Of a DNA stretch of 64,000 nucleotides, positions 19,346-28,889 are shown piece after piece. Positions within the stretch are counted from its first letter, which is position 1. Each line of letters opens with the position of its first letter. The stretch is from NCBI GenBank assembly GCA_014905825.1, contig JACGCN010000030.1:186001-250000 (forward strand). Reading direction: 5' to 3'. The notes below the pieces were generated by a model. It saw only the letters and a program-made list of their open reading frames with translations, made no database searches and was not told the origin of the DNA. Origin of the DNA: Lyophyllum atratum (lineage: Eukaryota > Basidiomycota > Agaricomycetes > Agaricales > Lyophyllaceae). Position numbers and translations under genes: made by a program.

Positions 19346-20152
19346 GCGGAAGCCAGATTCTTGGATCTAGATTCGTGGTCAGGGATGGACGATATGTCGA
19401 GAACGGACTGACCGACTCATGGGTTTATGTTAGTGGATTGGGCAAGTTTTAATTAGGTCGTTAGCTGGATGTGCGTAGATCAACAGCGAAGCGTTGGAGA
19501 AAATTGTTCCGATTATGAACGAGTTCAAGACACCAATACCGAACATGCCTCAACCGATCCTCGCTTTCCTGAACAACGATCGTCTGCAGCAACCAACACA
19601 TAACGGAAGGAAGAGAACAGAAGACATCAGGTATTTTGTAAGTCCATTGTAGGTCGTACGACAAGAGAGGGTTCTATTGAGCAGGAGCCGTTACTCATAG
19701 TACTGAATGACGACCTTCTCCCAGGTGGAATATGTCATGGCACCGCTATAGGCAGACAGATGAGAACACTCTGCCTCGGGGTGACTGAGAGTCTTACTGC
19801 CGCCTCTGAGCGACATGATCTTGCCTGCCAGTAATAGATCCGCATAACCTGCAAACGTGATACTGAATACCTCCAGTGCGCCGTACTGCACGCTATCAGG
19901 AAGTCCCCAGGACGATATATGGGCAATCGAGAGCGCTTGCGCTCGCGGATGCGAAACGTGATATTTATGTATGAGTGATGCAGTAGCACTGCGGGTGGAT
20001 ACGACGACCCATATCGTGGAAGAATCGTCGGAAAGTGGGGATAAAAGGGATTCTAAACGGAAATCGGCGGGTTGAGGAATGGAGTTGCCAATCCCTATGC
20101 TGGTTACAGGCTCGATCGCGTCAATGGAAAACGCGGACTCCGCCTCATAGCT

Positions 20153-20158
20153 TACAAG
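20153..20158. repeat. Target-site duplication TACAAG, left
   Basis: Immediately left of the terminal repeat at 20159 and identical to 21832-21837. It is exon 4 sequence of F-box-like copy C. Confidence 0.88.
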
Positions 20159-20186
20159 TATGGAAAGCCAGACGGTCGCGCTCTGC
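20159..20186. repeat. Terminal inverted repeat, left, 28 bp
   Basis: Starts TATGGAAAGCC and ends CGCTCTGC. It is the perfect reverse complement of 21804-21831; identity stops at the next inner base. Confidence 0.92.
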
Positions 20187-20536
20187 TGATGCCGTCGGCA
20201 TCGCAGATGCCATGGGTAGAACATTCAACCAAGCACTAGGACCTCGTACACTTGGTTGAAATCAGCGTCTGCTTATTTACAGATCATTTCCTAGTGTATA
20301 GTGTAGAGGGAGGCACTCGTTTTTCTTTGATTTGAGGGACAAGACATAGCTGAGATGAGTTGAATGAGAAAGTAATGCCGCCTAATTTTCCTCCGAGTGC
20401 TTTCTCAATATGCAGTAGGTTAATACGGTATACAGAACCGAAATTTGAAATGTGGACAAGGTTGGATGGGCGGATCGATACTGCATACACTCGGGGCCCG
20501 GGCTGAACACATCAGGAAATACGTGAAGATCTTGCT

Positions 20537-21561
20537 TTAACTTGCTCCCAGCATGCAACCATGTAATAAGTAATCGTTAATAAAGCTCGAGACAATGTGG
20601 GGATCTCTCGTGAAGTAGTCAAACCTGGTTTGCATGGTAAGCATAGGCGTGATATAGTACGGAAAACGCGAAGTACGCACTCGCGGATGTCTGATCTGGC
20701 TACGCGGAAGATCGAGAAGAGCTTGTATCCGACCCAACACATCCTCCACCACCTCCGGCCCAATTCTCTCCGTCATTGCCAAGAGGCCCGGCCGCCTACA
20801 AGGCCTTCCAAGGTGACACCTTCATCAGCACGGGTCCCAGCAAAGGAGAGAGACAGGGAGGAACTTACCAAAACCCGCCTCCTAACCCCCGCATCCGGAA
20901 TAAGCGCCTCCAACATTCTCTCGACCGCCTCCGTCACCCGCCCACTTTGCGGCAGCAACGTAAAAATATGCTCCGTCCCCACGAAATACACCTTATTGTA
21001 ACGCGTCAAGGCACTCTTCGGCGGCAACGGATCGCACGTCAAAACCTTCGCCTCCACCAGCACCGCCCTCGGACGCAGCTGCACGCGAGGTGAGCGGGCC
21101 TGGATGGATCTTGCTCTTGCAATCGCGGCGGGCGCGGATGGCGGGGGGAAGTGCGATGTCAAGTTTTTTGGCGAGGAGCGGGAGGACGGAGGGGAAGGAG
21201 CGAAGGGCTTGGTTTAGGGCTGCTGTACTTGCTTCGTCCGCCTTTGGAGTAGAAGTAGGTAAGGAATGATGAGGGTTAGGGCTGCTGTACTTGCTTGCTG
21301 GGCCTTCGAAGTAGAAGTAGATAATGAATGATGATGATATGGTATAAGAGGATGTAAAGACGTACTGATTACCATTTGCGGACTCCTGCATCTTCAAAGC
21401 CGAAGCCCTCGCACACATCCACCCTGGTAGGATACTCGGGTCCATTTCCTTCATCAGCCTCTCCCTCTGCTCACGGACACCTACGAAGAGGTCATACACC
21501 TCTTTGGCTGCACTGGAGGCGAGAGTGTAACTCTCGGGCAACCCCGAGCCGTGGAAACTAT
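20537..21561 (-). pseudogene. TCF25/Rqc1-like gene fragment inside the transposon
   Basis: One exon (about 21541-21373) reads LPESYTLASSAAKEVYDLF and ILPGWMCARASALKMQES. After an intron (GTAATC to TACAG), a second exon from 21222 reads ALNQALRSFPSVLPLLAKKLDIALPP. In a shifted frame downstream come VLTCDPLPPKSALTRYNKVYF and RMLEALIPDAG, and then, in yet another frame, PEVVEDVLGRIQALLDL. This order of words matches the C-terminal half of fungal TCF25 proteins as I remember them (an ARALALRMQE-like word, FPSVVPLL, ACDPLPP); these act in ribosome quality control. The N-terminal half is absent, a central stretch seems deleted and frames change, so no functional protein is expected. A 62-bp direct duplication (starting about 21,214 and 21,276) doubles the intron end and splice acceptor. 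Confidence 0.6.
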
Positions 21562-21803
21562 GACGCGTCTAAGTTGCGCTTGCGCGTTGTAGACACGTCA
21601 TAATTCAGAGAAAAAAATGGGCTCACCGTGGCGGTCAGTATTCAACTCATGTTTCTGCCTCCACCTATATATCCAGCTGCAGCCTCCCGCCGCCAGAGAA
21701 AAATGGAAACACAGCCTGCTCGATGCATAGTTTGAATTACTAATTAGAGCCCGCATCGCAGTACATGGGGTCCCCATCAAGAAATTTCATTCTCAGAAGG
21801 TCG

Positions 21804-21831
21804 GCAGAGCGCGACCGTCTGGCTTTCCATA
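21804..21831. repeat. Terminal inverted repeat, right, 28 bp
   Basis: Ends GGCTTTCCATA and is the perfect reverse complement of 20159-20186. Confidence 0.92.
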
Positions 21832-21837
21832 TACAAG
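21832..21837. repeat. Target-site duplication TACAAG, right
   Basis: Direct copy of 20153-20158 on the other side of the element. Confidence 0.88.
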
Positions 21838-23186
21838 AGCATCGGCCCTCCAAATTTTCAGGTCAAGCATAGATAGTGCGATGCCGTATCGCAACACCAC
21901 AATATGTCCTGGGACAAGTACGATTTCGAAGGAAGTCTAAGAGCCATTGATAAACGGCTCAAGCTAACGGTGCTAGCCTGAGAGAGAAAACCTACCGGGG
22001 AGACTTTAAGTATAGACCACGCAGACGTGGATATTTCCAAAGTTATCAACCCTGAATGAGATGTCAGGGATATGATAGCAAAGTCGCCCAGCAGTTTTAG
22101 ACGATGATATGGATTGTCGTAGTCGGTATCTGGGGCGGTCTTGGTGAGCAGCGAGGTTGACGACCCCGTTTGCAGATCCAATTTCACTACCTCGAGGTAG
22201 CTAGACGAATGAACGTTTAGCTCATCAACTCGAATTCAGATAGAAAATCTCCTACTTCTTGCGTGTGGTCTCGTATGTGCGGATCCCAAGTAATATAACG
22301 ACACTTTGTCCGTCGTCAACCATCTCCGCTGAACATTAGCCAACCTCCAGGAAGGTTTGTATTCCCAAATGAGCCGATCATCAGCGGTGCTCCTACACTC
22401 AAAGTTCCCCAGGTGTTGGAAGAGAATAAATTTGCCGCCGGGAAGCAGCTGCGGCTCATTTTCCCAGGTGAGAATTCCATCCCCAATGCGGATGTTGGGT
22501 TTGAGTATGATCTCCCGGGCTACCACGGCGGGTCTCCCGTCTAGCATTGACCAAGTTTTGGGGCCGGCGCGGACAGTACGTTTTGCTAGGCTAAGAAGCT
22601 CGTGCGTCGAGAGATCTTCCAGTCGCTGTTTAGGCAAAAGATCGATGAAGCCACGCCTATGAAGATCTGATAGAAGGGCCAGCCAAACGTGTTTCGACGT
22701 TGAAAGCGAATAGAGGGTCCGGCTCGCCTGGTGGATGATCGTACACCCGTGAGTACTGAGAATCATGTTGAGCGGGAAACATTATGCATACCAGGCTGCA
22801 AGTGAGGACGGTGGCGATGTCGCATGAACAGAGTATCTTCAGGAGGATATCCTCGACAAGAGCCGGTACCCTGAGGTTTTCTGCGGGCATGCTGTCCTTC
22901 GGATTTCCTCCAGATGTCAGTAAGCCAGACCTATTGATTCTCATTTGTTGCCGAATCCGCGTCACAGTAGAAGATAAGGTGGGATAAGTCCTTGATCATG
23001 ATGTGGATGTGACGCAGTCACTGGCACTCAATGGAATGATCCATTGCCCCAGTGGCCCCAGCCTGCTGCTTCACGCATCATGCATCAGCGTTCATCGAAC
23101 CCTGTTTCCCACACCGATACACCTTTCCGCACCCTTTATTCTTCGTAGATTACATGACAAGAGAGGGATCTAAGGAGTAAAAGCCG

Positions 23187-26354: not shown

Positions 26355-27070
26355 ATGAAACTCTCCCTCCTCTTCGCTGTGGCGCTGGTATCCCTCTGCT
26401 CCAGAAGTCTCGCACGTCCTCTTGACTTTTCCTCCCCCGACCTCGCAACCAGAGACGAGGGCCAGCTTCACATTGGTTCAAGTCAAACCACCATCATCAA
26501 AAGCCGAAAAACCAGATAAACCCCGTCTTACCATAGGTCCTGCATAGCAGACCGCAGAAGACGATCTGTGTTAGAGCTGATAGACACTGGTTACGAATCT
26601 ACGTCGAAAAATCAACTGTATTTGTGTTGCTCGACGTGAAAAGCAGTTCAGAGCCTGGCAAACGGGAAACCACCTCCTGCCCCATCAGCTCTGTTCGTTG
26701 TCCACGGCGTCCACGCCATCTTGTCGATCCTTTCGACTGCCTGCTCATCTTCTCGGTAACATACAAACTGCTCCTGGCCCCATTGTGCGATCACCAAGCC
26801 CTCCTATGCATCCCAAACTGATGTGGGTCGATGCTTGAAGATGCCGTCCCCAGATGGGTGTCTTTAGCTGGTTACAGCAGTAGGATGGTGGCTGCAAGTG
26901 CCGGAGTGAGTCGTGAATAGCTTGACTATCAGGGTCGTGAGCCTTGGCGTCGTCGACGACGTTTACAACGATGGCGACGCAAACCCTCTGCCCTGCCAAT
27001 CACGTGCAGCGGCTGGCCGGGGCCGTTCGTCAGATTCAGATGCTCCCGCACCACACAGCCAAACATCGCG
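26355..27070 (+). pseudogene. Decayed relative of the secreted papain-fold-like gene at 28.2 kb
   Basis: At 26355 an ATG opens a clean signal peptide (MKLSLLFAVALVSLCSRSLA) followed by RPLDFSSPDLATRDEG; the frame stops at 26519. Much further on, around 26,950-27,050, VVDDVYNDGDANPLPCQS and, in a second frame, RLAGAVRQIQ resemble VEDIGDHNGD, CQSNCQ and ALAAQI of the gene at 28233-28889. The middle part is not alignable by eye. Alternatively the 54-residue frame 26355-26519 is a small secreted peptide in its own right; it has an ordinary start and stop. I favour a broken paralogue but keep both options. Confidence 0.4.
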
Positions 27071-27099
27071 CCTACTTTTTTGGCCTGTGCACTGCCGCT

Positions 27100-28230
27100 C
27101 TGAGTACCGGTTTTTCAGAATGGAAGTCCACATCCACTACAGGCCCATTTCGATCCTTAAGACTGTACTTCAAGCACACCTATAGATTTACAGCTTACTC
27201 AAAGCAAGACTCTGCGGAACATGTTGAAAGTCAGGCAAGCATCGAAGCAAGGCTTGGACGGTTGATTAGCACTGTCAAAGTGAACCATGCCCGACTGTTC
27301 CAAGTGTACCAGGACTATGCTTGATAATGGAGAAACTTTGTAACATGCCAGTCTCTTACCAATGGTAAATCTTGGATTTCCATAAAGGGACAATATACCA
27401 CTGTTCAGAGACAGTATCTCTGCCACAACAGGCTTTGTTGAACACTGCCAATTTCTAAAATAAAGCAAGCGAAGTTCAGTTGGTAATACCATGCTAGATA
27501 TGGAGTCTATTATAGGCAATTATCCCCATGGGAGGCCCAGAAGCTCTATATGGCACAGATTGACCCCATCGTATCCATGGATGTGAGGTTTTACTTGATG
27601 TCGACCTTCCTCTTCCGAAGAAAGTCTCTAATGACTGCAGACATCATACCTTCACCGGCTTGGGTCTACATAGAAGGTCAATGGTAACACCACTCTTTAT
27701 AGAGACCTCTTTGGTACCATTGCGGTTCTGGAGAATCATACTCACTCTCGGTTATCTGCGCTACGTCACAAGCCTATATCCAAAGTGAATGTGAGACCTC
27801 CCTTAAATTGTATCTTCTTCAAAACAGATTTGAATGTCCCCCAAAGCCACACGTCACTTCATTTTGGACATTACCTCTGTGTGTCTCCTCTATTGATCTT
27901 TTAAGATGATCTTGAAGGACGGAACATACATCAGACTGTTTACAAAATTCACACTTGAAGTGTTAGAACTCTTTGAGGCTGTACCAGTCTATATTTCTTC
28001 GATGTTTCTGAGACTGCTGTTTTTGAATGATACACCCGCTCCTGAAAAAAGAGAAAATCTCAGCGGGGTTGTACACCCCATGCCCATAGTCATGGCTCTC
28101 CAGTGATCGACGTCGAAGCCCGTTCGCTTGCTGGAAGTTGTGATTATAGGCCCGAGGCGAAGATGAATAATAGTATAGATAGCTTGCCTGTACGTATCAT
28201 CGGGATAATCTCGGAACCCTGGTGTTCAGC
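27100..28230. other. Intergenic, no gene seen
   Basis: Short frames only. A (CTA)7 simple repeat lies just to the right at about 28,249-28,270. Confidence 0.45.
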
Positions 28231-28232
28231 GA

Positions 28233-28889
28233 TTGGACCATGCCAGTAATCTACTACTACTACTACTACTACCATCTTCCCATCTTTCCACCAGAGACTT
28301 TGGTAACTGGGACATCAACGACATTCCTACTCGTGACTTCGTCGACCTACACGACCTCGCCGTCAGAGGAGGTCCGACCAAGCCTGCCGCATCAGCGAAT
28401 GGTTCCCCCATAAAGAAGATGGCCAAGCCGAAGCTTCCTAAGCTCAATACATGTCGCAAACGCAACGGACCGTGTCTTAACCTATTCGTCGTATGGTATC
28501 AGCCGTTTGCCGGAATTTCGGCACGGCATTGGTCCCTCTTCCTCAGCGGCGCAACCGACGCAGCTCAGGTACATGGAGGAGCGATCGGTACAATCTACGA
28601 GGTGATCGATGAACGCGCATTCCCTCACTTGAAGCCTAATAGGTTGCCTGATATCGTGGCTTCCATTGCTAATCGTTACGAGGGCGCGAAGCTCGTGACT
28701 AAGGAGCGTCTCACGCTGGATACAATGGATCAGTATTTCCATGTATTTAAGGATAATCTGGTGGAGGACATTGGTGACCATAATGGGGACAAGAAGAACA
28801 TTGTCTGCCAGTCGAATTGCCAGCATTGGGTCAAGGCACTCGCGGCTCAGATTGATGAGCATTCGGACTTCTCAAACGTTCCTATGTAG
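28233..28889 (+). CDS. Probable secreted NlpC/P60- or LRAT-like (papain-fold) protein
   Basis: The frame is open from about 28,233 to the stop at 28,889. No ATG lies at its start; the first in-frame ATG is around 28,419 (MAKPKLPKL). A short upstream exon or a non-ATG start is therefore implied and the true 5' end is unknown. The leading part reads as a Leu run encoded by (CTA)n and then STRDFGNWD. The core shows LFVVWYQP, ARHWSLFLSG, GTIYEVIDE, YEGAKLV and, 130 residues after the His, CQSNCQHWVKAL. A His followed later by NC-Q-HW is the order expected of circularly permuted papain-fold families; His in RHWS and Cys in SNCQHW would be the catalytic pair. The substrate is unknown. Confidence 0.55.
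   Translation: MDHASNLLLLLLLPSSHLSTRDFGNWDINDIPTRDFVDLHDLAVRGGPTKPAASANGSPIKKMAKPKLPKLNTCRKRNGPCLNLFVVWYQPFAGISARHWSLFLSGATDAAQVHGGAIGTIYEVIDERAFPHLKPNRLPDIVASIANRYEGAKLVTKERLTLDTMDQYFHVFKDNLVEDIGDHNGDKKNIVCQSNCQHWVKALAAQIDEHSDFSNVPM

Follow-up and report, generated by a model that had tools for sequence, protein, structure and literature searches.

A probable Pack-type IS3EU transposon with a fragment of host TCF25 interrupts an F-box gene in the mushroom Lyophyllum atratum

How did a fragment of a TCF25 gene come to lie within an F-box gene of Lyophyllum atratum, and what kind of element carried it there? The locus is part of a 64,000-nucleotide stretch of contig JACGCN010000030.1 (the window; positions given here are those of the whole stretch, and C-numbers such as C64 or C97 denote contigs of the same assembly). 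An earlier note, made from the sequence alone, described a gene-carrying DNA transposon at this place and left its superfamily unnamed. We conclude that the 1,673-bp element (20159–21831) is, with high probability, a non-autonomous, Pack-type IS3EU DNA transposon that carries a fragment of host TCF25. It has ends of its own and a target duplication without a transposase, its cargo is a host fragment taken up at the DNA level, and the same ends enclose differing host fragments elsewhere in the genome.

The left terminal inverted repeat (20159–20186, plus strand) starts with TATGGAAAGCC and the right one (21804–21831, minus strand) finishes with TTTCCATA; over 28 bp the two are perfect reverse complements. 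TACAAG stands directly outside both ends (20153–20158, recognized by its match with the right copy, and 21832–21837), and a comparison of duplication lengths from 2 to 11 gave a match at 6 only. Excision of the element with one TACAAG restores ...KIWRADALVSYEAES... in frame, aligning with ...SIWRGDALVGYEPES... of tandem copy E, so that these claims of the earlier note all hold. The interrupted gene lies on the minus strand and belongs to a tandem array, and its relatives are uninterrupted; its 3′ part spans about 19500–20158 and its 5′ part about 21838–22995 (limits approximate), with the F-box at about 22.7–22.9 kb. With the two N-terminal exons joined, the match to the F-box family PF00646 reaches 31.5 bits (Pfam cut-off of 20.5), compared with 16.7 bits, under the cut-off, for the single exon alone.

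Many loci in the genome share the ends of the window element, but not its interior. A search with the end pattern TATGGAAAGCCNGACGGTCGCGCTC, allowing up to 3 mismatches, returned 36 matches (18 per strand) against none for the reversed pattern used as control. Of these, 32 make up 16 facing pairs and 4 stand alone (C69, C97:849, C103 and C75:129), which refutes the possibility that no second locus with these ends exists. An exact 6-bp duplication flanks 15 of the 16 pairs, compared with 0 of 240 cross (mismatched) pairs. Because C13:1732196–1732654 (459 bp) and C2:1766341–1766800 (460 bp) hold the same insertion with the same duplication, the number of distinct insertions with a duplication is 14; this shared insertion is probably present in both nuclei and is therefore perhaps older than the polymorphic ones.

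Element sizes in the 16 pairs range from 459 to 11,253 bp, and all but one, including the window copy, have TATGG..CCATA termini (one end of the remaining pair reads AATGG). Common to family members with other cargo are a left end region of around 160 bp (20159–20318 in the window, plus strand) and a right end region of around 80 bp (21750–21831, plus strand); in 14 elements (C13 and its twin excluded), mean pairwise identity is 85.2% over the first 170 bp and 88.2% over the last 90 bp. The identity of the window copy itself to C97 is 96.9%, and that to one of the elements on C93 (C93a) is 96.4%. The perfection of its 28-bp repeat is peculiar to this copy. In 14 of the other 15 pairs the perfect run is 11 bp, breaking at base 12 with similarity continuing beyond, and in one pair it breaks at the first base.

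The flanks of three other insertions were used to search the assembly for empty sites. All three insertions have such a site on another contig, uninterrupted and with the 6 bp present once. For the C85 insertion (TTGTTT), the empty site is C64:2732034–2733067 (flanks 96–98% identical; 110 of 113 junction bases); for the C73 insertion (ATATGA), it is C35:386145–387252 (94–99%; 111 of 114). The C1 insertion (GCCGAG) has its counterpart at C132:35364–36434 (79–89%; 93 of 102), a site that is perhaps not allelic but related. The window copy has its best uninterrupted counterparts in related gene copies only (77–86%): copy E on C76, one on C13 and four on C46, three of them at 774.6–780.2 kb. At two of these copies the flanks of the element abut exactly. 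C46 may represent the other nucleus's version of this region, given the parallel course of further matches on C76 and C46.

Within the element, no transposase was found; its cargo is the TCF25-like host fragment with an intron that the earlier note had recognized. The host gene matches PF04910 at 160.7 bits, and four colinear segments of it, with about 68–84% identity, lie on the minus strand of the window. Segment 1 (20720–21072) is an exon–intron–exon stretch in which a 1-bp deletion closes a frame that C97 keeps open; segment 2 (21089–21272) is around 84% identical to the host gene; segment 3 (21273–21445) starts with a duplicate of about 62 bp of segment 2; and segment 4 (21458–21502) completes the series. 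Relative to the host gene, the cargo has an internal gap of about 270–280 bp and a repeat of around 62 bp. An intron region with a GTAAGT donor is retained, and the cargo was therefore copied from DNA and not from spliced mRNA. Donor loci that include this intron region are found elsewhere in the genome, on C82 and C64.

The same cargo is common to the window copy, C97, C93a and C92. In a further element (C78:346891–349789), the cargo is another part of TCF25; where it overlaps with that of the window copy, it is around 70% identical to the host and 64% identical to the window copy. A single capture shared by C78 and the window group was considered and found no support: because only 3 derived sites are shared, against 45 changed in only one of them and 3 changed differently, the TCF25 sequence of C78 was apparently captured separately, as judged from these site patterns.

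Other members of the family have taken up unrelated genes. In five elements (C1, C2, C93b, C76b and C75), the cargo is part of a multicopy gene; the donor stretch itself has no Pfam match, but 7 of its 11 relatives contain PF10469, with two of the 7 named A-kinase anchor protein 7-like. An uncharacterised gene is matched by C85, C75b, three one-ended copies and C97:1484–1486 kb, the last without recognized ends; its donor frames have no Pfam match, and a short cysteine motif is present in basidiomycete relatives. The element at C73:539179–541652 is chimeric. It joins pieces of a G-alpha gene (donor PF00503, 193 bits) and of a HAMP-domain gene (donor PF00672, 42.7 bits), all in one orientation, to a third piece that matches C87 and C63, lacks a long open frame and is perhaps a repeat. 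The HAMP-domain donor is presumably a group III histidine kinase. A 10,008-bp element (C92:258814–268821) matches the window element in its ends and left cargo. Around 350 bp of the TCF25 element are here replaced by 8.7 kb with gene-like stretches, including PF01636 and PF20174, as if a second capture had taken place within the first. No donor of this 8.7 kb was found when part of it was queried; the matches were short, the longest being around 300 bp at 77%.

The long copy that the earlier note expected to reveal a transposase is present. Between the facing ends on C64 lie 11.3 kb that include a DDE transposase (PF24764) and, on the opposite strand, an alpha-kinase-like gene. The transposase is of the DDD/E type with an integrase-like core, as in IS3EU. 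Across the genome, a kinase match lies beside 7 of 8 transposase loci, on the opposite strand at 5 of those 7. Four further transposase/kinase loci (C71, C86, C1 and C64b) have TATGGAAAGC ends, TATGG..CCATA termini and 6-bp duplications at all four; they fall into two groups, and beyond TATGGAAAGC their end sequence differs from that of the window family. The inverted repeats of the C1 and C86 transposase elements are perfect over at least 33–34 bp. Two of these IS3EU-type copies, C71:457882–479133 (21 kb) and C86:1113957–1138932 (25 kb), are around twice the length of the three other transposase copies, perhaps owing to nested insertions. A TET/JBP domain was not detected by Pfam in the 11 of 53 reading frames of the C64 copy and its flanks that were scanned.

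Published fungal IS3EU elements have 6-bp duplications, TAYGG..CCRTA ends and a transposase and alpha-kinase in opposite orientation, as described in PMC12730594, and complete IS3EU elements are reported to have TA..TA termini and usually a 6-bp duplication (PMC10045372). Agreement in ends, duplication length and gene arrangement supports IS3EU as the probable superfamily of the window element.

Several observations weigh against this assignment, or against the element as we read it. Only one transposase copy has exactly the ends of the window element, and a search for window-type ends within 1.5 kb of other transposase matches gave nothing convincing (best, 5 mismatches in 17). The relaxed end pattern has a control about as large as its signal (65/53 versus 50/55), and the ends of C71, C86, C1 and C64b were accepted on no other grounds than where they lie and the exact duplications beside them; with this pattern, no bracketing ends were seen among the matches listed for the C65, C81 and C90 loci. 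The kinase exon of C64 scores 20.5 bits, just below the cut-off of 21.3; kinase and transposase share a strand at 2 of the 7 loci (C65:529300–532922 and C81:485702–490596); and no transposase adjoins two further weak kinase matches (C64:621 and 635 kb). For the C64 transposase, a PDB sequence search gave nothing significant and Foldseek gave no PDB match at E ≤ 0.001. The 28-bp repeat falls short of the length of more than 30 bp given in PMC12730594, where it describes the TET-bearing rust families. One of the 16 pairs (C75:2533212–2535119) lacks the 6-bp duplication and has an altered right end. Finally, TCF25 donor and cargo differ by roughly 15–33%; the capture is therefore not recent, or a closer donor has been lost or escaped our view.

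Of the 16 pairs with exactly these ends, a single one contains the transposase. This would also be expected if the ends belonged to another superfamily (Mutator-like, hAT or undescribed) and the transposase and kinase of an IS3EU element had merely been taken up by the 11-kb element, as this family does capture genes. However, 6-bp duplications also flank the four other transposase/kinase loci, which fall into two groups and have different ends beyond TATGGAAAGC, and this combination is the one published for fungal IS3EU; we regard a foreign origin of the ends as highly improbable. It is also very unlikely that, instead of being a passenger, the TCF25 cargo serves as a functional gene or a source of regulatory RNA under selection. 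Coding-like stretches and the GTAAGT intron donor do persist in both the window copy and C97, but part of the gene is missing, around 62 bp are repeated internally and the window copy is frameshifted relative to C97. Least credible of all is that TCF25 sequence reached the F-box gene through an assembly artefact or local gene conversion: misassembly could occur in a tandem array such as this, but 15 of 16 pairs combine the same ends with an exact duplication, and three insertions have precise empty sites in single copy, which leaves almost no room for it.

A Pack-type IS3EU element would fit a simple scheme, in which catalysis, capture by gap repair and current activity are points that we infer. 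A transposase of the C64 type would bind the shared ends and mobilize elements such as the window copy; insertion elsewhere with a stagger of 6 bp, followed by gap filling by the host, would leave TACAAG on both sides. Cargo may be acquired when a gap inside an element is repaired from an unrelated gene, which would leave the ends as the sole conserved parts. The TCF25 fragment would then be hitch-hiking and not a working gene. More tentatively, IS3EU in mushrooms could be a general gene-shuffling system, mobile within one species, that repeatedly takes up exons together with introns of unrelated host genes, joins parts of different genes in a single orientation (C73) and exchanges the cargo of elements already in place (C92).

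Elements of this kind can mislead gene annotation. Elsewhere in the window, 26484–28272 is a repeat with copies of around 90–92% identity on C1 and C130 and of lower identity at other places.

That cut-and-paste transposons capture gene fragments is well established for plants and, in the case of other superfamilies, for animals and fungi. Our full-text search of open-licence papers gave, among the matches listed, no report of non-autonomous IS3EU elements that carry gene fragments, which is not proof of absence. The combination of known ends, a partner transposase, several donors and empty sites in one genome opens both capture and exon shuffling to tests, in a basidiomycete as well as in IS3EU.

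IS3EU itself is listed for the mushroom Ganoderma leucocontextum (PMC8955403), and elements with TET/JBP genes are reported from rusts and a truffle (PMC12730594). The fungal elements described in the latter study resemble ours in ends, 6-bp duplications and opposed transposase and alpha-kinase (here in the C64 partner), but are coding elements, whereas the window element and its shorter relatives lack a transposase and carry host fragments. Styx of Zymoseptoria, assigned to IS3EU (PMC10853768, PMC9970103), likewise has a DDD/E transposase, 6-bp duplications and acquired extra coding sequences, and it is active; unlike the window element, it is a 7.9-kb coding element of an ascomycete, and these accounts, as far as they go, describe no fragment-carrying non-autonomous family for it. 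Fungal DNA transposons were already known to capture genes: hAT transduplication of histone H3-like genes in Pyrenophora tritici-repentis was reported as the first case in fungi (PMC3538342) and extends to other Dothideomycetes (PMC6710886). Those cut-and-paste elements also hold a host-type gene between inverted repeats and have a short non-autonomous form, but they are described with 8-bp duplications and one captured gene type, whereas the basidiomycete IS3EU family drew on several unrelated donors. Plant Pack-MULEs and Pack-TYPE elements (PMC8903248) and animal Pack-TIRs (PMC8277862) share the plan of common ends around host gene fragments, but belong, as reported, to superfamilies other than IS3EU; hAT and Tc/Mariner make up 87.2% of animal Pack-TIRs, and the main text of that study mentions neither IS3EU nor fungi. 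Helitrons of Pleurotus ostreatus (PMC4289320) are likewise mushroom DNA transposons with captured genes, but are described as rolling-circle elements.
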